Source of the DNA: a virus
Virus record (IMG/VR): IMGVR_UViG_3300048011_000023
Location: 1 to 23,366 of that record
Reading direction: 5' to 3' (one strand)
DNA length: 23,366 nucleotides
The notes beneath the pieces are model-generated. The model was not told the origin of the DNA, searched no databases, and saw only the letters and a program-made list of their open reading frames with translations. Every line of letters begins with the position of its first letter. The first letter of the stretch is position 1. Both the position numbers and the translations under genes were made by a program. This document shows, one piece after another, positions 4,338 to 22,857 of the stretch.

Positions 4338-4970
4338 ATGGCAAGTGGTGATACAAATATAACAATCTGCAACCAGGCATTAAATTTGCTGGGAGCTGAT
4401 ACAATAAGTTCATTTAGCGATACATCTAATGATGCTGCTGCTGTATGTAATAATATTTACGAAACTGTTAAAAGACAAACTCTGTCAATGTACCCTTGGA
4501 GTTTTGCTCTAACAAAATTACAATTAACTAAATCTGGAACATCACCAATAGGTGAGTGGGATAATAGATTTGATTTGCCTTCAACAGCTGTAGCTGGTCA
4601 AGCATTTCAAGTTTATAATTCAAAAGCAAATTTAGCTGTACCAATAACAAGTTACGAATTACAATACACTTCTTCTGGCCCAGCTATTTATACAAACGAA
4701 GAAACAATTTTTATTGATTATATTACAAGTGCAATTACAGAAGGTTTGATGCCTTCATATTTTGTACAACTACTTGTTTATATGATGGCCTGGCATTTAG
4801 CTGAACCGGTAACTGATCAAATAACAAAAGCAGATTATTGGAAAGTTGTAGCATTAGGTACACCATCTGAAAATGGCAGAGGTGGATATTTTAGATCAGC
4901 AAGTAATGCTGATGGCAGAGGCAAACCTAGCTATGCTATCCATGAATTTCCATTAACAGATGTTAGATAA
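4338..4970 (+). CDS. Tail tubular protein A, T7 gp11-like (adaptor/gatekeeper)
   Basis: A 210-residue protein (T7 gp11 is 196) expected to form the dodecameric ring that joins portal to nozzle. The N-terminus, ITICNQALNLLGADTISSF, then NDAAAVCNNIYETVKRQTLSMYPWSFALTKLQL (about 8-65), is the classical signature of the tail tubular A family, with the helical bundle containing Tyr-Pro-Trp. The C-terminal half carries beta strands and the helix MPSYFVQLLVYMMAWHLAEPVT. Start chosen at the ATG after TTAGGA, 8 bases upstream. The stop overlaps tail tube B as TAATG, so both subunits are probably coupled. Confidence 0.93.
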   Translation: MASGDTNITICNQALNLLGADTISSFSDTSNDAAAVCNNIYETVKRQTLSMYPWSFALTKLQLTKSGTSPIGEWDNRFDLPSTAVAGQAFQVYNSKANLAVPITSYELQYTSSGPAIYTNEETIFIDYITSAITEGLMPSYFVQLLVYMMAWHLAEPVTDQITKADYWKVVALGTPSENGRGGYFRSASNADGRGKPSYAIHEFPLTDVR

Positions 4971-7264
4971 TGAGCAGAGCTGTATCTATACAAACAAATT
5001 TTACTACAGGGGAAATAGATCCTTTATTAAAATCTAGAATAGATATTGATCAATATTATAATTCTTTAGAACAAGCTCGTAATGTAGTTATTCAGCCACA
5101 AGGTGGTATTACTCGTAGACCAGGACTACAATACATTTCAACAATACCTTCTGCTGCTAATCCACAAAATGGATGTAGATTAGTTCCTTTTGAATTTTCA
5201 ACTACACAAAGTTATATGTTGTTATTTGTACATAATAGAATGTACATTTACAAAGATAAAGTTTTACAAACAAACATTAATGGAACCGGTAATGATTATC
5301 TTGTTACTGCTATTGGATCTTCTAATTTATCAACTATTGATTATGCTCAATCAGCAGATACATTAATTGTTGTCCAGGAGGACATGGCCCCTAAACAAAT
5401 TAAAAGAGGAGCTAGTCATACTACCTGGACTATTGCAGATATTAGTTTTGAGTACACACCCAAGTATGCATTTAGTTTATCTACATCAAATCCTTCAGCA
5501 ACATTAACTCCTTCAGCTGTAGATGGTAATATAACATTAACTGCTGGATCTTCTGTTTTTGCATCTAGTAATGTTGATGATTATGTTGAGGCAGCAGATG
5601 GAATTGGTAGAGCTAGAATAACAAGATTTGTTTCTGGTACTGTTGTAGAGGCTATTGTTGAAATACCATTTTTTAATACTTCAGCTATTGCAAGTGGATC
5701 TTGGTTACTTGAAGTAGATTATGTAGATGCCTGGAGTGCTACTTATGGATACCCTAGAACAGTAACATTTCATGAAGGAAGATTATATTTTGGTGGATCT
5801 AAATCTAGGCCCAATACAATTTTTGCATCAAGAGTAGGAAGATTTTTTGATTTTAATCCAGGTGAAAGTTTAGATGATGATGCTATAGAAGTTACATTAA
5901 ACACAGGCCAGGTTAATGCTGTTACAGGATTATTCTCTGGTAGAGATTTACAAATCTTTACTAAAGGTGGTGAATTCTTTTTACCACAATCAGATCTTGA
6001 TCCAATCACACCAGGCAATGTTGTAATACAAGGTGCAACTAAAAGAGGATCTAAAGAAGGTATTAAGCCTGTAGGAGCTGAAAGTGGTACAATGTTTATA
6101 CAAAGATCTGGTAAATCATTAAGAGAATTTTTATTTAGTGATGTAGAGTTATCTTACATATCAAATAATATTTCTTTATTATCTTCTCATTTACTTGTTA
6201 CTCCAACAGATCTAGCATTAAGAAAAGCAACATCTACTGATGATGGTGATTTATTGTTAATTGTTAATACTGATGGATCTCTTGCAACTTATTCAATTTT
6301 AAGAGGTCAAAATGTTATAGCTCCTTCTTTGTCATCTACTGATGGTGAATTTGTAAAAGTTGCTGTAGATGTAGATACAATTTATTTTGTAATTAAAAGA
6401 ACAGTAAACTCTAATACAGTTTATTATATTGAAACTTTTAATGATGATAATACTACTGACAGCAATAAATTATTAACTAGCTCTGCTGGTACATTACCAA
6501 ACTCATCTACAATAACTAAAGCTGTTACTGTACAAAGTGTTTCTGGATCAAATAAATATTTTATAGATGGAGTACAACAAGCAACACTTAATTTGTATGA
6601 AGGTCATACTTATAAATTTGATCAATCAGATAATTCTAACTCTGGCCATCCATTAAGATTTTATTTAGATGCAAACAAAACTACAGCTTACACAACAGGA
6701 GTAACTACAAGTGGAACACCTGGATCTTCTGGGGCCTACACACAAATCGTAGTAGCTAGTGCAGCTCCTACTTTACATTATCAATGTTCATCTCATGCAG
6801 CCATGGGAGGTGTAGCCAACACTCCTAGTGGTGCATCTATAACAGGATTAACTCATTTAGAAGGTAAAACAGTTAAAGTGATAATTGATGATGCTATGGC
6901 AGCAGATGCTACAGTTGCCTCTGGAGCTATAGTAGTTAGCACATTGCCAACAAGTTATATTGAAATAGGATTAAATTATACACCAACTGTTAAAACAATG
7001 CCGGTAGAATTAAAATTACCAAGTGGTAATACAGTAGGACAAAAGAAAAGAATAGTAGAGGCATCAGCATTATTATACCTTTCACAAAATTTAACTTTAG
7101 ATGCTAAAGAGTTTCCATTTACAGCAGCAACTTTTTTTACAGGAAAGAAAAGAAGAAAACCAATGTTAGGTTATGATCGAGAAGGTCAACTAACATTTAG
7201 TCAATCAGCTCCCCTTTTCTTTACTTTATTAGGTGTGGAGTATAAAGTGAGTGTAGGACAATAA
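4970..7264 (+). CDS. Tail tubular protein B, T7 gp12-like nozzle, with a cupredoxin-like insert
   Basis: The nozzle protein at the tail tip. The 764 residues compare with 794 in T7 gp12. The start (FTTGEIDPLLKSRIDIDQYYNSLEQARNV, then QPQGGITRRPGLQYI, about 12-58) is the family hallmark, and the central part contains the expected propeller-like repeats (for example YPRTVTFHEGRLYFGGSKSRP near 260). Residues about 520-630 are different: they read as a compact cupredoxin-like beta sandwich with potential type-1 copper ligands His560 (in GHPLRF), Cys606, His609 and Met612 (in YQCSSHAAMGG). Related modules occur in structural proteins of other marine phages. The C-terminal segment then resumes with gp12-type sequence (FTGKKRRKPMLGYDREG). 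Whether metal is bound cannot be told from sequence. Confidence 0.93.
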   Translation: MSRAVSIQTNFTTGEIDPLLKSRIDIDQYYNSLEQARNVVIQPQGGITRRPGLQYISTIPSAANPQNGCRLVPFEFSTTQSYMLLFVHNRMYIYKDKVLQTNINGTGNDYLVTAIGSSNLSTIDYAQSADTLIVVQEDMAPKQIKRGASHTTWTIADISFEYTPKYAFSLSTSNPSATLTPSAVDGNITLTAGSSVFASSNVDDYVEAADGIGRARITRFVSGTVVEAIVEIPFFNTSAIASGSWLLEVDYVDAWSATYGYPRTVTFHEGRLYFGGSKSRPNTIFASRVGRFFDFNPGESLDDDAIEVTLNTGQVNAVTGLFSGRDLQIFTKGGEFFLPQSDLDPITPGNVVIQGATKRGSKEGIKPVGAESGTMFIQRSGKSLREFLFSDVELSYISNNISLLSSHLLVTPTDLALRKATSTDDGDLLLIVNTDGSLATYSILRGQNVIAPSLSSTDGEFVKVAVDVDTIYFVIKRTVNSNTVYYIETFNDDNTTDSNKLLTSSAGTLPNSSTITKAVTVQSVSGSNKYFIDGVQQATLNLYEGHTYKFDQSDNSNSGHPLRFYLDANKTTAYTTGVTTSGTPGSSGAYTQIVVASAAPTLHYQCSSHAAMGGVANTPSGASITGLTHLEGKTVKVIIDDAMAADATVASGAIVVSTLPTSYIEIGLNYTPTVKTMPVELKLPSGNTVGQKKRIVEASALLYLSQNLTLDAKEFPFTAATFFTGKKRRKPMLGYDREGQLTFSQSAPLFFTLLGVEYKVSVGQ

Positions 7265-15967: not shown

Positions 15968-16300
15968 ATGGCACAAAATTTTAGAAACCAATTAACACAT
16001 ACAGCTATAGGTACTAGCTATACAGATATTTTAGCTCAAGCTAATACTTTTGATACTGTAGTTGGAATTAGATTAGTTAATGTAACCGGTACATCTATCA
16101 ATGTAACTGCTGCAATAGAGAATAGTTCTAATACAACTGAATTAATTGTTAATTGTCCGATCCCTGGAGGATCTAGTTTGGAGCTTATTGATGGTGGTAG
16201 TAAAATAATTTTAAAATCTGGTGATAAGCTAAAGGCTAAAAGTGATACAAGTAGTTCACTTAAAACTGTAGTTAGTTTTATTGACAGTATTAGTACATAG
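15968..16300 (+). CDS. Small beta-rich virion accessory protein
   Basis: A 110-residue protein with an AAAGGAG ribosome binding site. It has no charged termini or hydrophobic helices and alternates beta-forming residues: VVGIRLVNVTGTSINVTAAIENSS, then CPIPGGSSLELIDGGSKIILKSGDKLKAKSDTSSSLKTVVSF. The order (strand pair, PxGSSLxLxDGxKIxLxxGDxLxxxS) is widespread among small marine phage virion proteins that lie with fibre genes, where it is thought to form a beta sandwich. It is probably a fibre- or tail-associated subunit. Exact role unknown. Confidence 0.6.
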   Translation: MAQNFRNQLTHTAIGTSYTDILAQANTFDTVVGIRLVNVTGTSINVTAAIENSSNTTELIVNCPIPGGSSLELIDGGSKIILKSGDKLKAKSDTSSSLKTVVSFIDSIST

Positions 16301-16308
16301 GAGGACAC

Positions 16309-16629
16309 ATGGGATACATAGGTAATTCAACATTTACAGGAGTTATAACTAGCTCTGATAGTATTGATGCTGGTGTAGTAGAAATATCAGATCTATCAGC
16401 AGCAGCTCAAGCTGGTTTAGGTAATGCAGATCTGTATGGTTTTAAAAAGACTAATGGAACAGGATCTCAAAAAGAAGATCTAATTATGACTACTACTAAT
16501 GGCACAGATAATATTGATGTAGCTACAAATGATGGATCCCAAACAGATCTATTTGATGAAAGTTTTTTTAGTAAGAAAGGATTATCATTTTCGGTAAATG
16601 CCGATGGTGAATTATTGGTAACAGTATAA
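16309..16629 (+). CDS. Tail-associated accessory protein A (shares a C-terminal domain with the 16847 gene)
   Basis: A 106-residue protein preceded by a good AGGAGG site. Residues about 41-106 (LYGFKKTNGTGSQKEDLIMTTTNGTDNI, ending FSVNADGELLVTV) align by eye with the C-terminal end of the 190-residue protein starting at 16847 (IYGF, TTTNGGQDNI, FSLNSDGHLIATI). The N-terminal residues resemble the start of fibre proteins that carry simple strand patterns (IGNSTFTGVITSSDSIDAGVVEISDLS). It is probably a small fibre or a fibre-tip subunit. No enzymatic motif was seen. Confidence 0.55.
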   Translation: MGYIGNSTFTGVITSSDSIDAGVVEISDLSAAAQAGLGNADLYGFKKTNGTGSQKEDLIMTTTNGTDNIDVATNDGSQTDLFDESFFSKKGLSFSVNADGELLVTV

Positions 16630-16847
16630 TGGCATTAACAAGGTTAGGATCTTTAGCAGCAACAAACTTGGTACTAGGTGGTAATGTAGGTACAGAAGGT
16701 GATGCTTATAAAAACTATAATACTATTTCTAGTTCAGTAACTTTAACAATGGCATCAACTAAAAACTATTTTTTAAAAGGGCCAATAACAATAAATAACA
16801 ATGCAACATTTACTGTTGCTGGTACAGGGGAGTTAAAAATTATCTAA
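16629..16847 (+). CDS. Small beta-structured hypothetical protein
   Basis: A 72-residue protein. Its C-terminal half (YNTISSSVTLTMASTKNYFLKGPITINNNATFTVAGTGELKII) has the short alternating strands and NNATFTVAGTGELKII pattern of one or two beta-helix coils, as in small phage fibre proteins. It overlaps both neighbours (TAATG upstream and downstream), which argues for a real gene tied to the fibre accessory set. I do not recognise a family. Confidence 0.6.
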   Translation: MALTRLGSLAATNLVLGGNVGTEGDAYKNYNTISSSVTLTMASTKNYFLKGPITINNNATFTVAGTGELKII

Positions 16848-17419
16848 TGCCATATATTGGAAGGAATTTACAAACAGGGGAATACAAGCTCATAACATTA
16901 ACAGAGAGCTTTGATGGTAGTAGAACAGCCTTTACTATGTCAGAGAGTGTACCTTCTGAAAGAGTGCTTATGGTTATCCTGTCTGGGGTACTGCAACATT
17001 GGGGTGAAAGTTTTACTGTATCTGGAAATCAATTAACTTTTTCAGCAGCTCCTAGTTCTGGGGAAACAATTAAAATTTTAAAACTAGGTGATACTTTAAA
17101 TATTGCTACTCCATCCCAGGGTACAGTAGGTACTGCTCAACTATCTACATCCGGTATTGCAGCTGGTAAAGTATTTAAAGTTAATGATGCTGGTAATGCC
17201 TGGGAGTTGGGTAATGCATCTAGTGCAGAGATCTATGGATTTACTATGATAGATACAAACTCTGATAACATCCTGGACAGCTTACAAGTAACAACAACTA
17301 ATGGTGGACAAGACAATATTACAGCTGCTGTCTATGCTGCCTTTGATGACAAGATGTTTGCAGCATCTGGATTTACTTTTAGTTTAAATAGTGATGGTCA
17401 TCTGATTGCAACGATTTGA
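16847..17419 (+). CDS. Tail-associated accessory protein B
   Basis: A 190-residue protein with three visible parts. Residues 1-85 (YIGRNLQTGEYKLITLTESFDGSRTAFTM, then RVLMVILSGVLQHWGESFTVSGNQLTFSAAPSSGETI) are a beta domain widespread in marine phage tail proteins, related to gp17-type N-terminal repeats. Then comes AAGKVFKVNDAGNAWELG (about 105-122), which is a diverged copy of the LKVNS...EFG hinge found in the three fibre genes downstream. Residues about 127-190 repeat the C-terminal domain of the protein at 16309. It probably forms part of the fibre apparatus. After its stop there is a 69-base AT-rich gap with a promoter candidate. Confidence 0.65.
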   Translation: MPYIGRNLQTGEYKLITLTESFDGSRTAFTMSESVPSERVLMVILSGVLQHWGESFTVSGNQLTFSAAPSSGETIKILKLGDTLNIATPSQGTVGTAQLSTSGIAAGKVFKVNDAGNAWELGNASSAEIYGFTMIDTNSDNILDSLQVTTTNGGQDNITAAVYAAFDDKMFAASGFTFSLNSDGHLIATI

Positions 17420-17488: not shown

Positions 17489-18238
17489 ATGGCATCTAAA
17501 ATAATTGTAGATCAACTAGAAAGTTCTGGATCAAATATAACTATACCTACAGGAACAGGCCTGGTAGTTACTGATGGAATAGCAGCTACAAATTTATCTG
17601 GTACGATTGCTGATGCAAGATTGCCAACAGTACCAGTATCAAAAGGTGGTACTGGACTAACATCATTAGGTAGTGCTGGACACGCATTAAAAGTAAATTC
17701 TGGTGGTAATGCATTAGAGTTTGGAGAAATTGCTGGTGGTGGAAAAGTTCTTCAAGTAGTAACTAATCACGACAATACTGAAAAAGATTTGGCAACTGGA
17801 AGTACAATGACAAACTATTCTGAATTAAATACTTCAATTACACCAAGTGCAACTAATTCTAAAATTTTAGTAATGGTTCATTTTGGAGCATTACAATATG
17901 GGGGAAACGATAGCTCATTAGGTTATGGAAAAATTATGTATCAAATATCAGGTGGGAGTGTTCAAGATATGGCAGGTAGTGAGCAGTTAGGTGCTAATGC
18001 TATGTCAGTTGGTAGCAAACATCAATTCGCTATCAATTTGGAAACGAGTGAATGGCAAACATTTCAACCAAGTATGGTTTTATTACACGAACCAAACACT
18101 ACAACTTCAACAAGTTACCAAGCATTCTTTCAAGCAGAATCTAGTAATGGTATTTTAAAAATTAATAAAAATTATAGGAATAATGGAAACGATTGTTCTA
18201 CAATATCTACTATGACTTTAATGGAAATAGGAGCATAA
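17489..18238 (+). CDS. Tail fibre 1 of the cassette array
   Basis: A 249-residue fibre protein. Residues 1-60 (SKIIVDQLESSGSNITIPTGTGLVVTDG, then LPTVPVSKGGTGLTSLG) are a common fibre N-terminal part; the KGGTG turn is frequent in phage tail fibres. At about 64-79 the hinge ALKVNSGGNALEFG follows, then the distal head (residues about 85-249: GKVLQVV, SITPSATNSKILVMVHFGA, TSYQAFFQAESSNG, ISTMTLMEIGA) which by eye is a relative of the head of the next fibre. It probably forms the receptor-binding tip. It holds the only GAATC (GANTC) seen in the window, at about 18139, within the head coding part. Confidence 0.8.
   Translation: MASKIIVDQLESSGSNITIPTGTGLVVTDGIAATNLSGTIADARLPTVPVSKGGTGLTSLGSAGHALKVNSGGNALEFGEIAGGGKVLQVVTNHDNTEKDLATGSTMTNYSELNTSITPSATNSKILVMVHFGALQYGGNDSSLGYGKIMYQISGGSVQDMAGSEQLGANAMSVGSKHQFAINLETSEWQTFQPSMVLLHEPNTTTSTSYQAFFQAESSNGILKINKNYRNNGNDCSTISTMTLMEIGA
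17686..17698 (+). repeat. Hinge-coding direct repeat shared by the three fibres
   Basis: ATTAAAAGTAAAT occurs here, at 18823-18835 and at 19852-19864; the latter two extend to ATTAAAAGTAAATAGT. Each codes for LKVN(S) of the hinge before the variable head, in the same frame. It is a possible crossover point for head exchange between genes. Confidence 0.7.
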
Positions 18239-18239
18239 T

Positions 18240-18539
18240 ATGAAAAAATATGCTAACGCAATAAATGAAATTAATCCAAAAGCACATTTTGATTTAAGTA
18301 ATAATGACTTATCAACTATTGTTTGGTTACATGGTACTACACCTATTGATGTTGCTGATATAGAAACAAAAGCAACTGAAATAGAAAATAGGGACTTACA
18401 TATTGAGCCTAGACAAAGAGCATATCCATCAATTAAAGAACAATTAGATATGATGTGGCATGACAAACAAAACGATACTACAACATGGGAAGATGCTATA
18501 TCTAAAGTCAAATCAGATAACCCAAAGGCGAGTGAATAA
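18240..18539 (+). CDS. Probable fibre assembly chaperone 1
   Basis: A 99-residue protein following fibre 1 with 1 base between them. The start (YANAINEINPKAHFDLSNNDLSTIVWLHGTTPIDVADIE) is shared with the protein of the next cassette (ADAISAINPNAIFSTRDNEVTWLDGTTPISDEDI). The end (YPSIKEQLDMMWHDKQNDTTTWEDAISKVKSDNP, about 61-95) is the tail-fibre-associated pattern YPS-IxxQLDM-WHD common to small proteins encoded after fibre genes in marine phages. By position it could be a chaperone that helps trimer formation or attachment of the fibre, but it might also be a structural tip protein. Confidence 0.65.
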   Translation: MKKYANAINEINPKAHFDLSNNDLSTIVWLHGTTPIDVADIETKATEIENRDLHIEPRQRAYPSIKEQLDMMWHDKQNDTTTWEDAISKVKSDNPKASE

Positions 18540-19291
18540 TGGCAACAGTAAATTTAGGTAGAATTAAACCAGTATTCAGAGGAGCATACAATAACTCAAC
18601 TTCTTATGTGATTGACGACATTGTTACATCTGGTAACGAAACATTTATAGCTATCGCAGCTACTCAAGGTAATGCTACAAGTGATGCAAGTAAGTGGACA
18701 AAACTTGCAGCCAAAGGAGCTGATGGTACTGATGTTGCAGCAACACTACAAAACAAAGAGATTGCATTTAAAACAAATGCTGGAGCATTAGATGGTATTC
18801 CAATCGGTACTGCTGGACAAATATTAAAAGTAAATAGTGGTGCTACAGGATATGAGTTTGGTGCAGATCAAGGAGGAAAAATATTAAAAGTTTATAATGA
18901 TACTGATGCATCAAATATTACTACAAATTCAACTTCATATCAAGATACAGGACTTTCAATTACACTTACACCAACAAGTGCATCAAATGATTTTTTAATT
19001 ATAGCAGATTTAGGTGTAACTAGACACGCAAGTACGAGTGCAAGTATGTTTGTACAAATAATGAGAGATAGTACTGCAGTTGTGGCTCATGGCAATGGTT
19101 ATATGGGATATTCTGGTAATACAAATGACAGAGGATATTATCCAAGTTTCTTCCATCATTTAGATGTTCCAAATTCAACAAGTTCAATAACATACAAAAT
19201 ACAATATAAGTCAGAGAGTAGTGGAGCATCTGTTCACTCTTATGGAAGTAGAAGAATGACTATATTTGAAATAGATGGGGGTATAGAATAA
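18539..19291 (+). CDS. Tail fibre 2 of the cassette array
   Basis: A 250-residue fibre. The N-terminal module (MATVNLGRIKPVFRGAYNNSTSYVIDDIVTSGNETFIAI, then SKWTKLAAKGADG, 1-65) is like a carbohydrate-binding-module-type beta domain and is shared with fibre 3, and more weakly with the gp17-like fibre. The hinge QILKVNSGATGYEFG lies at about 94-108. The head (about 111-250) begins GGKILKVYNDTDASNITTNSTSYQDTGLSITLTPTSASNDFLII, a pattern of marine phage receptor-binding domains with short strands, and ends RRMTIFEIDGG. Overlaps TAATG with both neighbours. Confidence 0.8.
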   Translation: MATVNLGRIKPVFRGAYNNSTSYVIDDIVTSGNETFIAIAATQGNATSDASKWTKLAAKGADGTDVAATLQNKEIAFKTNAGALDGIPIGTAGQILKVNSGATGYEFGADQGGKILKVYNDTDASNITTNSTSYQDTGLSITLTPTSASNDFLIIADLGVTRHASTSASMFVQIMRDSTAVVAHGNGYMGYSGNTNDRGYYPSFFHHLDVPNSTSSITYKIQYKSESSGASVHSYGSRRMTIFEIDGGIE

Positions 19292-19542
19292 TGATTACTA
19301 TAGCAGATGCAATTTCAGCAATAAATCCTAATGCTATTTTTTCTACAAGAGATAATGAAGTCACTTGGTTAGATGGAACAACACCTATTAGTGATGAAGA
19401 TATACAAGAAAAAAAACTAGAGTTAGAAAATCAAGAAGAAATAAATAAACAAGCTAAAGCAGATTTAAAAGCTAGTGCTAAAGCAAAGTTAATTGCTGGT
19501 GAACCATTAACCGAAGAGGAGGCAGACACAATAGTGTTGTAA
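19291..19542 (+). CDS. Probable fibre assembly chaperone 2
   Basis: An 83-residue protein. The N-terminal half matches that of chaperone 1 (AINPNA, then VTWLDGTTPIS). The rest is a charged helix ending in KLIAGEPLTEEEADTIVL, which is nearly the same as the end of the protein at 20521 (KLIAGEPLTKEEADTIAL). It combines the start of one neighbour and the end of the other, a clear sign of module shuffling. The role in fibre assembly is inferred from its place only. Confidence 0.65.
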   Translation: MITIADAISAINPNAIFSTRDNEVTWLDGTTPISDEDIQEKKLELENQEEINKQAKADLKASAKAKLIAGEPLTEEEADTIVL

Positions 19543-19546
19543 TATC

Positions 19547-20521
19547 ATGGCCACGATAGATTTAGGAAAACTAGGATTTGTAAACAAAGGTACTTATAAC
19601 AATAGTACAACTTATGAGAAAAATGATTTAGTACAATTTACTGATAGTGGTATTCTATCTACTTACTTATACATAGATAGCTCTGCTCAATCTGGCCAGG
19701 CCCCATCATCATCTGGTACTGCTGGATCAAGATGGGTTTACTTTGCTAAAGGTGTAGCTGATAGTTTAGCTAGTGCTGGTAACAATAAAGTAATTGTTAC
19801 TAATGCAAGTGGACAAGTAACTCCTTTAGCTATTGGTTCTGCATCTCAAGCATTAAAAGTAAATAGTAGTGCAAATGGTTTTGAGTTTGGGGAAACTGGT
19901 GGTGGACTTCAATCACAACAAGTTTTTACATCATCTGGTACTTACACAAAACCAAGTGGCATAAATAAAATTAAAGTTATAGTTACTGGAGCTGGTGGAG
20001 GTGGTGGTTCGGGTTCTGGATCAAACAACCATGGTGGAGGAGGTGGTGCTGGAGGTACAGCAATAGAAATAATTGATGTATCTTCATTATCTTCTACTGT
20101 CGCAGTTACAGTTGGAACTGGTGGTACTGTTGGTTCTGCAAACTCAAGCACTCAAGGTGGAACTGGAGGAACATCATCTTTTGGTTCTTACTGTTCTGCA
20201 ACTGGTGGAATTGGAGGTTTCTATGCAGATGCACAAGCACAACAAAATGCAGGAGATGGTGGAGTTGGTTCTAATGCAGATATAAATTTACATGGTGGTA
20301 GAGGAGAAGAACATTCTGCTCAATCAACACAAGATCAATCTGGAGGTGGACATGGTGGTTCATCTTATTGGGGAGGTGGTGGAAGAACAGCTTCTCCTTG
20401 GACAACAACAAACGCAACAGCAGGAGAGGCATTTGGTTCTGGTGGTGGTGGAGGAGTTCACGACAACAGAGCAGGTGCAGTAGGTGCTGATGGAATATGT
20501 GTAGTAGAGGAGTATAAATAA
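19547..20521 (+). CDS. Tail fibre 3 with glycine-rich receptor-binding head
   Basis: A 324-residue fibre. The N-terminal module (MATIDLGKLGFVNKGTYNNSTTYEKNDLVQF, ending SRWVYFAKGVADS) is homologous to that of fibre 2. The hinge QALKVNSSANGFEFGETGGG lies at about 101-120. The head then changes completely: FTSSGTYTKPSGINKIKVIVTGAGGGGGSG followed by many Gly-rich runs to the end, the pattern of the glycine-rich domain (PF21722 type) and comparable in nature to the polyglycine adhesins of T-even phages. Such heads carry receptor specificity in exposed loops between glycine-rich strands. No Shine-Dalgarno site sits directly before the ATG (4-base gap after the upstream stop), so translation may be coupled to the preceding gene. 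Confidence 0.85.
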   Translation: MATIDLGKLGFVNKGTYNNSTTYEKNDLVQFTDSGILSTYLYIDSSAQSGQAPSSSGTAGSRWVYFAKGVADSLASAGNNKVIVTNASGQVTPLAIGSASQALKVNSSANGFEFGETGGGLQSQQVFTSSGTYTKPSGINKIKVIVTGAGGGGGSGSGSNNHGGGGGAGGTAIEIIDVSSLSSTVAVTVGTGGTVGSANSSTQGGTGGTSSFGSYCSATGGIGGFYADAQAQQNAGDGGVGSNADINLHGGRGEEHSAQSTQDQSGGGHGGSSYWGGGGRTASPWTTTNATAGEAFGSGGGGGVHDNRAGAVGADGICVVEEYK

Positions 20522-20796
20522 TGAAAGCATTAATATTAAATAATAAAGTAGTAGATGTTAAAGAAAATGAATTTGAAGTAGCACCTACTATGTTTTGGGT
20601 TGATTGTGATGACACAGTTAAAACTGGTTTTACTTATGATGGAAGTACATTTACATCTAATGAACCAACTGCTGAAGAAATTGCAGAGGCACAAGCAAAA
20701 CGAAAAGTTTTTGCAGATTTAAGAGTAAGTGCTAAAGAAAAGTTAATAGCTGGAGAACCTCTTACAAAAGAAGAGGCAGATACAATAGCATTATAG
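20521..20796 (+). CDS. Probable fibre assembly chaperone 3
   Basis: A 91-residue protein after fibre 3, with GAGGAG before the ATG. The N-terminal half (MKALILNNKVVDVKENEFEVAPTMFWVDCDDTVKTGFTYDGSTF) differs from the other two chaperones and resembles the widespread small phage protein with xWVDCDDxVxxGxxYDGxxF. The end (SAKEKLIAGEPLTKEEADTIAL) is shared with chaperone 2. It likely serves fibre 3, perhaps as a chaperone specific for the glycine-rich head. Confidence 0.65.
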   Translation: MKALILNNKVVDVKENEFEVAPTMFWVDCDDTVKTGFTYDGSTFTSNEPTAEEIAEAQAKRKVFADLRVSAKEKLIAGEPLTKEEADTIAL

Positions 20797-20803
20797 GTAT
20801 GCC

Positions 20804-21025
20804 ATGGGAAGAGTTACTAAAAAAGCAACAGTACAAAGTGTAACTCTTAAACACATTAACGAAAAGTTAGATCACATCCACAAAGATCTAGATCAAAACA
20901 CAAAAGACATTGTAGAATTAAAGCAGCAAGTAGCTATGGGCCGAGGTGGTCTTAAAGTGATCTTCTATATTGGAGCTATAATTTCTATAATATTAGGAGG
21001 TTTAAAAATTGGAAAATTTATTTAA
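20804..21025 (+). CDS. XhlA-like membrane protein with coiled coil (lysis)
   Basis: A 73-residue protein. Residues about 12-43 are a coiled coil (LKHINEKLDHIHKDLDQNTKDIVELKQQV) and about 50-67 one transmembrane segment (LKVIFYIGAIISIILGGL), with a short Lys-containing tail. This layout is that of XhlA-type proteins that accompany holins. It opens the lysis block, 7 bases after the fibre chaperone, and shares a TAATG overlap with the next gene. It may act as a holin or a holin partner. Confidence 0.65.
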   Translation: MGRVTKKATVQSVTLKHINEKLDHIHKDLDQNTKDIVELKQQVAMGRGGLKVIFYIGAIISIILGGLKIGKFI

Positions 21026-21252
21026 TGGAATATGTACTTGTCATGATACTATGCTCATCTATTGCAAACTCTTGTTTGCCTCCACACATATATCCTAATA
21101 CATTTCCAGATGCCTACAGCTGCATGGTGCAAGGCTATCAAAACTCATTAGACAAAATTATAGACATAGGCCCAGAGGATGTAAACTCTGCTGGTATGTA
21201 CATAAAGTTTGGATGTAACCCTCAAGAAATTAGGAAAGGAATATCAACATGA
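21025..21252 (+). CDS. Small exported cysteine-containing protein
   Basis: A 75-residue protein. The N-terminus (MEYVLVMILCSSIANSC) looks like a short signal peptide or membrane anchor; no perfect lipobox is seen. The mature part has FPDAYSCMVQGYQNS and ends VNSAGMYIKFGCNPQEI, so two cysteines could form a disulfide in the periplasm. Proteins with this pattern (sCm, then YIKFxC) are common in marine podovirus lysis regions; their function is not known. It sits between the XhlA-like and the holin gene, overlapping both. Confidence 0.6.
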   Translation: MEYVLVMILCSSIANSCLPPHIYPNTFPDAYSCMVQGYQNSLDKIIDIGPEDVNSAGMYIKFGCNPQEIRKGIST

Positions 21253-21662
21253 TACAAGGACTAACTGCTCTACTACCAATACTAAACAAAGCTGTAGATC
21301 TAGTGCCTGATAAAAATAAAATTGCAAGACAAAAAGCTGACATAGAAAAAGAATTAATGAAAGCTCTAGTTGATGTAGATAAAGAACAAGCAAAAATAAA
21401 TAGAGAAGATGCAAAAGCTACAGGAGCTATGTCTTGGATGCAAAGATTATGGAGGCCCTCTTTAGCCTGGGTATGTGTGTTTGCTTTTATGTTTCAATTT
21501 TTAGTTATACCAATCACTAATTGGATCTGTGCATTAAGAGGTACAACAATAGATCTTCCTACCCTGGACAGCTCTACCCTTATGACAGTTCTGTTTGCTT
21601 TACTTGGTATGACAGGAGCTAGAAGTTTTGATAAGTTAAAAAAAATTAATAACAAAAAATGA
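21249..21662 (+). CDS. Holin, 3-TM GTA-type family
   Basis: A 137-residue protein. The first 60 residues are helical and charged (KIARQKADIEKELMKALVDVDKEQAKINREDA), then come two transmembrane segments (about 71-93, RPSLAWVCVFAFMFQFLVIPI; about 109-123, STLMTVLFALLGMTG) and a basic tail. The RPSLAWVCVF motif and the LDSSTLMTVLFALLGMTGARSFDKLKK end are typical of the holin family named for gene-transfer-agent release (PF11351). Holins collect in the inner membrane and open it at a set time so the endolysin reaches the wall. It overlaps both the upstream gene (ATGA) and the tiny gene at 21659 (ATGA). Confidence 0.87.
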   Translation: MIQGLTALLPILNKAVDLVPDKNKIARQKADIEKELMKALVDVDKEQAKINREDAKATGAMSWMQRLWRPSLAWVCVFAFMFQFLVIPITNWICALRGTTIDLPTLDSSTLMTVLFALLGMTGARSFDKLKKINNKK

Positions 21663-22437: not shown

Positions 22438-22857
22438 ATGGCAATGGTAGAAAGAAAAGAAACTAAATATGTAGTAGTACATTGTGCTGATACTCCAGCT
22501 GATATGGATGTGGGAGCTGCTGATATTAGAAGGTGGCATGTAGATGAAAGAGGCTGGGATGATGTGGGTTATCATTGGATCATTAGAAGATCTGGACAGT
22601 TAGAACCTGGAAGAGATCAAAGGCTACAGGGTAGTCATGCTCTTGCAGTTAATAGTAAAAGTATAGGTGTGTGCTTGGTGGGAAGAGGCGATAACTTTAC
22701 AGAAGATCAGATGTACACACTTCATAATGTAATACAAACAATCAAAGATATGCACCCAGAAATCGAAGTCATTGGACATTCAGATGTGGAACCAAAGAAA
22801 CCACATTGTCCAGGCTTTAATGTAAAGGAATGGTATCGAGATGAGTTCATCGGCTAA
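22438..22857 (+). CDS. Endolysin: T7-lysozyme-like N-acetylmuramoyl-L-alanine amidase
   Basis: A zinc amidase that cleaves the bond between N-acetylmuramic acid and L-alanine in peptidoglycan. The 139 residues match an Amidase_2 domain (T7 lysozyme has 151). By alignment with T7 lysozyme (His17, Tyr46, His122, Lys128, Cys130), the zinc ligands should be His15 (in VVVHCADTP), His114 (in GHSDVEPK) and Cys124 (in HCPGF); Tyr45 (DDVGYHWII) and Lys120 or Lys121 would be the catalytic pair. No signal peptide is present, so export depends on the holin. In T7 the same protein also inhibits RNA polymerase by its N-terminus; whether this one does cannot be told. Its place after the holin and spanin genes fits lysis. 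Confidence 0.95.
   Translation: MAMVERKETKYVVVHCADTPADMDVGAADIRRWHVDERGWDDVGYHWIIRRSGQLEPGRDQRLQGSHALAVNSKSIGVCLVGRGDNFTEDQMYTLHNVIQTIKDMHPEIEVIGHSDVEPKKPHCPGFNVKEWYRDEFIG

Follow-up and report, generated by a model that had tools for sequence, protein, structure and literature searches.

Three tandem fibre and small-protein cassettes in a marine phage genome fragment: a probable adhesin array with heads exchanged together with the N-domains of candidate assembly factors

The stretch of viral DNA analysed here (IMG/VR record IMGVR_UViG_3300048011_000023, positions 1 to 23,366; hereafter the window) carries, between positions 17489 and 20796, an array of three fibre genes, F1 to F3 (249, 250, and 324 amino acids), alternating with three small genes, C1 to C3 (99, 83, and 91 amino acids; Table 1). 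The strict alternation described in a first-pass annotation, made from the letters alone, is borne out by the list of open reading frames of the window, in which all six genes are intact, of the expected lengths, and on the + strand. The genes are tightly packed: C1/F2, F2/C2, and F3/C3 overlap by one base (TAATG), F1 and C1 are separated by one base, and C2 and F3 by four. A scan for promoters and terminators gave no signal, with 20 promoter-like sites compared to 19.8 in shuffled sequences. An assembly artefact was ruled out, as the paralogues within the array are just ~28-51% identical where they can be aligned, an independent contig (L007) is 99.6% identical to window positions 18478-21400, and the six-gene order is identical in the cultured phage Hodr.

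The modules of the array are related to one another in the manner the annotation had proposed, and all four relationships it named are significant in BLASTP alignments (E-values computed against a small local database). F2 and F3 have a common N-terminal module (residues 1-103 and 1-110; 36% identity, E = 2e-10), F1 and F2 have related heads (27.5% over 160 amino acids of neck and head, E = 6e-10), C1 and C2 are alike in their N-terminal halves (44% over 52 amino acids, E = 2e-10), and C2 and C3 in their C-terminal ends (51% over 57 amino acids, E = 2e-12). The head of F3 is indeed glycine-rich and matches PF21722 (58.7 bits, cut-off 24.3; E = 1.1e-15). Absent from the annotation was a neck motif, GxAGxxLKVNSGxxxxEFG, common to all three fibres. 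At the DNA level the necks form three 61-nt direct repeats of 70-77% identity, and the C-terminal tails of C2 and C3 form an 83-nt direct repeat of 81% identity.

Relatives of the array were collected as 94 loci (numbered with an L) from IMG/VR scans that used F2, C1, the protein at the position of T7 gp17, and a 190-amino-acid protein encoded upstream as queries. Comparison of these for copy number and head swaps, as the annotation had suggested, revealed between one and three cassettes, and heads that differ on conserved stems: three cassettes are present in Hodr, L009, L014, and L039, two fibres in L034, L036, L041-L047, and L051 (the small gene being absent in some), and single cassettes in, for example, L016 and more distant pelagiphages. 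The earlier description of the array as unusual holds only in part, given that cassettes of a fibre and a small protein 3' of the tail-fibre gene recur across the marine lineage. Hodr (Pelagibacter phage EXVC031P, OQ414635, L002) resembles the window in having a gp17-position gene, then genes for proteins of 110, 106, 72, and 190 amino acids, then three cassettes, with 72-88% identity across most of the fixed parts; it differs in its portal (37% identity) and by the replacement of both the F2 and the F3 head as well as of several small-protein domains, and its genes are all annotated as hypothetical. The stem of Hodr F2 is 72% identical to that of the window over ~155 amino acids including the neck, and that of F3 84% identical over residues 1-110. 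Despite these similar stems, the Hodr heads are either unrelated to the window F2 and F3 heads or much more diverged. The stems are position-specific fixed parts, each position keeping its own. No mention of Hodr was found in the literature searched. The GenBank locus tags of Hodr and of Baldr (OQ414636, L004) are apparently swapped, with EXVC032PBaldr_ used in the Hodr record and EXVC031PHodr_ in the Baldr record.

The limits of the replaced segments are visible in DNA alignments. Homology between the window and L010 covers 18536-18864, is interrupted, returns over 19465-19890, is interrupted again, and resumes at 20715. With L008, homology covers 18536-19890 (92.8% identity), is lost across a replaced F3 head and C3 N-domain, and continues from 20715 (97.8%). 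These edges coincide with the ends of the necks (18861 and 19890) and with the starts (19465 and 20715) of a conserved C-terminal tail of the small proteins, KLIAGEPLTEEEADTIVL, where homology comes back. The alignments indicate that a head and the front of the next small protein are replaced as a single unit, from conserved neck to conserved tail. There is strong support for duplication followed by module exchange, as the annotation had envisaged, and the unit exchanged can now be defined as a head plus a small-protein N-domain. Among ten related loci, 40 of the 61 ends of high-identity DNA blocks inside cassettes lie within 15 nt of a neck end, against an expectation of 2.9% if positions were random. 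In cassettes with a recognizable tail, 29 of the 63 blocks restart no more than 15 nt from where the tail begins, and the remainder mostly at the next gene start; as both directions of each comparison and common ancestry are included, these counts show regularity rather than probability. They supersede an earlier all-against-all run over 39 loci, which was too noisy at low identity.

Since the last 12 codons of the tail track position (seven nucleotides there separate positions 2 and 3 perfectly; n = 10, permutation p = 0.007) and the first 14 codons do not (p = 0.18), the most economical explanation is a crossover within the tail. Units also move between positions, as the position-3 unit of L008 has a relative on the position-2 stem of L011 (116 bits for the head and 84 for the small-protein N-domain, but only 40 for the stems). 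Separately, one and the same unit of head and N-domain was seen in L047, L008, and L011, which include two- and three-cassette loci and have differing stems. A diversity-generating retroelement was ruled out, as neither the window nor Hodr nor any of three larger relatives gave a reverse transcriptase (RVT_1) match; control genomes were positive. As regards an invertible fibre switch, which would have an invertase and inverted alternative fibre segments, a single pair of inverted repeats, just 74% identical, was found within the 23.4-kb window, and all six genes lie on the same strand.

Heads and small-protein N-domains are also inherited together. In a set of 65 non-redundant cassettes, 32 of the 70 pairs with homologous heads had homologous small-protein N-domains, compared to 4.7 in shuffles (p = 0.0005), and this held when shuffling was confined to stem types. 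On unrelated stems, N-domain homology was present in 11/27 homologous-head pairs versus 43/595, and head matches above 100 bits were accompanied by a small-protein match in six of seven cases. As a control for linkage, the fibre's own small protein matched in 4/7 pairs and the preceding one in 1/7. The small proteins are bipartite, with many types of N-domain and few of C-tail, and the KLIAGEPLTEEEADTIVL tail occurs in 2/11 cassettes with F1-type stems versus 42/54 with other stems (Fisher p = 0.0003). The type of C-tail goes with the socket, that is, with the fixed parts of a position.

In an AlphaFold2 model of F2 (pLDDT 80.5; all models here are monomers), the C-terminal domain is TNF-like, and the head resembles the bacterial lectins PLTL (Z 16.7, root-mean-square deviation 1.9, 129 residues) and BC2L-C (Z 16.0). 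It is predicted to have a TNF-like lectin fold; the likeness is at the level of fold, and sugar binding is a prediction. A profile of the fibre family matches, across neck and head, the C-terminal part of orf22 in PDB entry 9efk (E = 8e-12); the entry has 18 orf22 chains and could not be tied to any paper. F3 matches phrog_863 (7e-57), and the PHROG matches of both F2 and F3 are tail fibres. With an E limit of 0.1, the stem matched CBM5/12 (PF02839) in 16 members of the family out of 32, the best at 1.2e-6, but not in the window F2.

The first-pass annotation had called the small proteins chaperones. This is plausible in light of the head-specific co-inheritance, the helical tail, the tight gene coupling, and the precedent of gp24/gp25 in phage Pam3, but no known chaperone family is matched by C1-C3. 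The C2 model (pLDDT 88.2) begins with a helix and a beta-hairpin, continues with a long helix, and ends in a short one; it weakly resembles the NMR structure of XkdW (2HG7), with Z 3.0 over 51 residues. The small protein of L053 is a true XkdW match (PF09636; 61.2 bits, cut-off 24.6); C1-C3 have no match to this Pfam family, and none to the Tfa and DUF4376 families was detected for C1-C3 up to E = 1 or in 40 family members up to E = 0.1. A PDB profile search with the small proteins gave no match, and a Foldseek search of the PDB with C2 gave nothing below E = 2. Pfam matches to Pirin_C, Glycos_trans_3N, and similar families fell below cut-off and were taken as chance. The layout is that of Tfa-type systems, with a head-matched variable N-domain, a conserved helical C-domain, and a gene directly 3' of the fibre. 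In Pam3 (PDB 7YPX), the fibre tip is TNF-like and Gly-rich, and the chaperone encoded after it likewise has a variable N-domain, which holds the tip, and a conserved helical C-domain, which trimerizes (PMC9608196). A role as head-specific assembly chaperones, with a logic like that of Tfa, is in keeping with the co-inheritance of heads and N-domains.

Taken together, the data make it probable that the locus is a three-socket adhesin array in which heads are exchanged together with the matching N-domains of their assembly factors. Each socket would provide one fibre, probably trimeric, and one small, tightly coupled assembly factor. The fibre would dock on the tail by a fixed N-terminal stem, which leads through a conserved neck to a lectin-like or Gly-rich head that can be replaced; the assembly factor would recognize the head by a replaceable N-domain and end in a fixed helical C-tail. 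Homologous recombination, with one crossover in the neck and a second within the C-tail, would allow units of head and N-domain to pass between phages and between positions, and a particle may, as the annotation suggested, carry several receptor-binding proteins, here all three fibres, at once. Several points weigh against such a system. Some block ends fall elsewhere, with a second cluster ~125-135 nt 5' of the neck end, and some restarts are at the next gene start; cassette pairs and breakpoints are not independent of one another; and linkage, for which the control is small, may partly explain the co-inheritance. The AlphaFold2 models are of monomers, and the array is known from genes, not virions. 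Moreover, the likeness of C2 to XkdW is weak, XkdW is to our knowledge not a tested chaperone, C1-C3 match no chaperone family in Pfam, and the best PHROG families for C1 and C2 have no known function.

Co-inheritance with heads would be predicted equally well if the small proteins remained part of the virion and capped or tipped the fibre heads, like Tfa of Mu or gp38 of T2 and S16, so that head and small protein together formed the adhesin. Mu Tfa remains on the fibre and the chaperones of phages A5 and V22 remain loosely bound (PMC10579305). However, a single tail across otherwise unrelated small proteins suits a common assembly or oligomerization part better than a receptor tip, and Pam3 gp25, a close functional analogue, was not detected in virions (PMC9608196); we regard caps as an unlikely alternative. 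It is also conceivable that heads and N-domains travel together merely as neighbours, with the small protein having some other role, as the abutting or overlapping of fibre and small genes means that an exchange block often carries both; in keeping with this, 38 of the 70 head-homologous pairs lacked a small-protein match at the threshold used. Against linkage alone, recurrent crossovers inside the small-protein tail keep the N-domain with the head, the association holds across unrelated stems, and strong head matches nearly always come with a small-protein match, and we regard it as unlikely.

The commonness of one- and two-cassette arrays would fit a situation in which no more than a single fibre at any time works or is bound to the virion, and the rest are spares or decay products of duplication. 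This seems improbable to us, as the six reading frames are intact in both the window and Hodr, and three cassettes are kept, with differing heads, in the divergent L009, L014, and L039. Finally, decoration proteins can have similar lectin folds, and the fibres might decorate the capsid or another part of the particle rather than serve as tail receptor-binding proteins. No result here favours a capsid location, the fibres lie 3' of the tail-fibre gene and its conserved partners in all mapped relatives, their PHROG matches (F2 and F3) are to tail fibres, and the 18 orf22 chains of 9efk, an entry whose details could not be read, are consistent with six trimers; we consider a decoration role very improbable.

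As part of the same explanation, the phage with this three-socket array is probably a small marine podovirus-type phage. Its portal is closest to that of OM43 phage MEP301 (65.6%), followed by SAR11 phage Hodr (37%), and its tail module is closest to that of Hodr. MEP301 was reported to lack RNA and DNA polymerases (PMC8024684). Neither Hodr nor any of four relatives of 31-36 kb, possibly incomplete, matched T7 RNA polymerase (PF00940), the window itself being a 23.4-kb fragment, whereas the positive control HTVC142P matched at 1.5e-104. Up to E = 10, nothing in the window matched the N-terminal domain of T7 gp17 (PF03906), the 367-amino-acid protein at the gp17 position included; Hodr scored 12.9 bits, under the cut-off of 25.2, and the control HTVC142P 113.6 bits. 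Because of the portal affinity and these two results, the earlier label of a T7-like phage with a standard gp17 is to be dropped. SAR11 and OM43 are leads as to the host.

Table 1. Coordinates of the array, its exchange units, and the upstream tail genes in the window
Feature	Coordinates	Strand	Description
gp17-position tail fibre/adaptor, 367 aa	14851..15954	+	C-terminal ~70 aa 58% identical to Hodr; phrog_38058 tail fibre, 5e-17
110-aa and 106-aa conserved small proteins	15968..16629	+	candidate adaptors; 88% and 75% to Hodr
72-aa protein	16629..16847	+	slot of a 434-526 aa adhesin-like protein in two-cassette relatives; N-terminal MALTR motif in both
190-aa conserved protein	16847..17419	+	C-terminal domain in common with the 106-aa protein
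F1, 249 aa	17489..18238	+	short stem without CBM-like module; neck ~17669-17728; head homologous to TNF-like F2 head
C1, 99 aa	18240..18539	+	N-domain related to C2; distinct C-terminal tail (QLDMMWHDKQNDTTTWEDAISKVKSDNP); phrog_9114, 7.8e-19
F2, 250 aa	18539..19291	+	stem with possible CBM5/12-like module, neck, then TNF-like lectin head (predicted)
F2 neck	18806..18865	+	left limit of the exchange unit, at which homology with other phages ends
Position-2 exchange unit (F2 head and C2 N-domain)	18862..19506	+	L010 homology off at 18864, back at 19465; tail crossover ~codon 14/15
C2, 83 aa	19291..19542	+	N-domain helix and beta-hairpin, long helix, conserved C-tail
C2 conserved tail	19465..19542	+	26 codons including stop; last 12 codons position-specific across phages
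F3, 324 aa	19547..20521	+	stem homologous to F2; neck ~19835-19894; Gly-rich head
Position-3 exchange unit (F3 head and C3 N-domain)	19891..20760	+	no DNA homology in L008; flanks match 92.8% and 97.8%
C3, 91 aa	20521..20796	+	unrelated N-domain; conserved C-tail 20719-20796

The genes upstream of the array include two, for the 106- and 190-amino-acid proteins (16309-17419), with a common C-terminal domain (35%, E = 2e-8 by BLASTP) that the annotation did not mention; in L017 and L018, longer tail-fibre proteins end in this domain as a fusion. Several of the 434-526 amino acid proteins with the MALTR motif (L035, L036, L041, L044, L045, L047, and L051) have a Laminin_G_3 lectin, Gly-rich, or Ig-like domain. 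Among complete arrays, the short 72-amino-acid protein goes with three cassettes (4/4: the window, Hodr, L014, and L039) and the long protein in the same slot with two (6/6: L036, L041, L044, L045, L047, and L051). As this label switches only about twice on the tree of neighbouring proteins, the correlation is not independent evidence and serves just as a lead, namely that the number of exposed adhesin genes is possibly kept near three, either as a 72-amino-acid stub with three cassettes or as a large adhesin with two. A broader possibility, which we hold to be less likely than not, is a general plug-in system, with two to three fixed sockets, each having a recombinogenic neck and chaperone tail, a marine pool of head and chaperone units circulating between positions and phage lineages, and adhesin genes near three.

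Two further features lie elsewhere in the window. The nozzle protein (tail tubular protein B; 4970-7264) has an inserted domain at about residues 508-633, with a GHPLRF...YQCSSHAAMGG pattern and cupredoxin-like by eye, that is found again, 44-59% identical, in the tail adaptors of L018, L023, L045, and L053, which suggests a domain that moves among the structural proteins of marine phages. At 21249-21662 and 22438-22857 are a holin with three transmembrane segments, of the GTA_holin_3TM family (PF11351, 1.2e-11), and near it an Amidase_2 endolysin (8e-15).

In the fibre and Tfa loci of Mu, P1, P2, and R-type tailocins, which are invertible or modular, the fibre C-terminus is exchanged as one module with its chaperone while the N-terminus is fixed; unlike in the window, the alternatives are switched or swapped within one fibre, not arranged as tandem cassettes. 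We know of no small assembly gene per fibre among the tailspikes of the Ackermannviridae. Their branched complex resembles the array in that several receptor-binding proteins are encoded together, and differs in that these are multiple polysaccharide-binding tailspikes (PMC11414711). Pam3, in contrast with the window phage, is a myophage with a single fibre, and its gp25 is Tfa-like and 162 amino acids long, whereas the window proteins have 83-99 and no detected similarity to Tfa. Alteromonas phages V22 and A5 illustrate the sharing of a fibre, as a pair with its 3' chaperone, between unrelated marine phages; they have one pair per phage and larger chaperones, V22 gp27-like proteins carry DUF4376, and the available parts of the two reports describe no socket of stem, neck, and tail (PMC7289586, PMC10579305). 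In marine metaviromic islands, genes for a carbohydrate-binding protein, tail fibre, C1q-like, XkdW, and tail fibre assembly proteins are similarly hypervariable, but the excerpted report defines no exchange unit of head and assembly factor (PMC3909814). The exchange module of fibre and chaperone is therefore already known, and what is new here is its occurrence as tandem sockets.

How phages of SAR11 and OM43, which are dominant bacteria of the ocean, recognize their hosts is little understood. An array of this kind would let such viruses change their attachment targets. From the defined exchange unit one can predict the parts that govern attachment and the small gene required by each head, and genes now labelled hypothetical gain a rule for their annotation. 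At fewer than 100 amino acids, the small proteins are very small candidate fibre chaperones for structural work.

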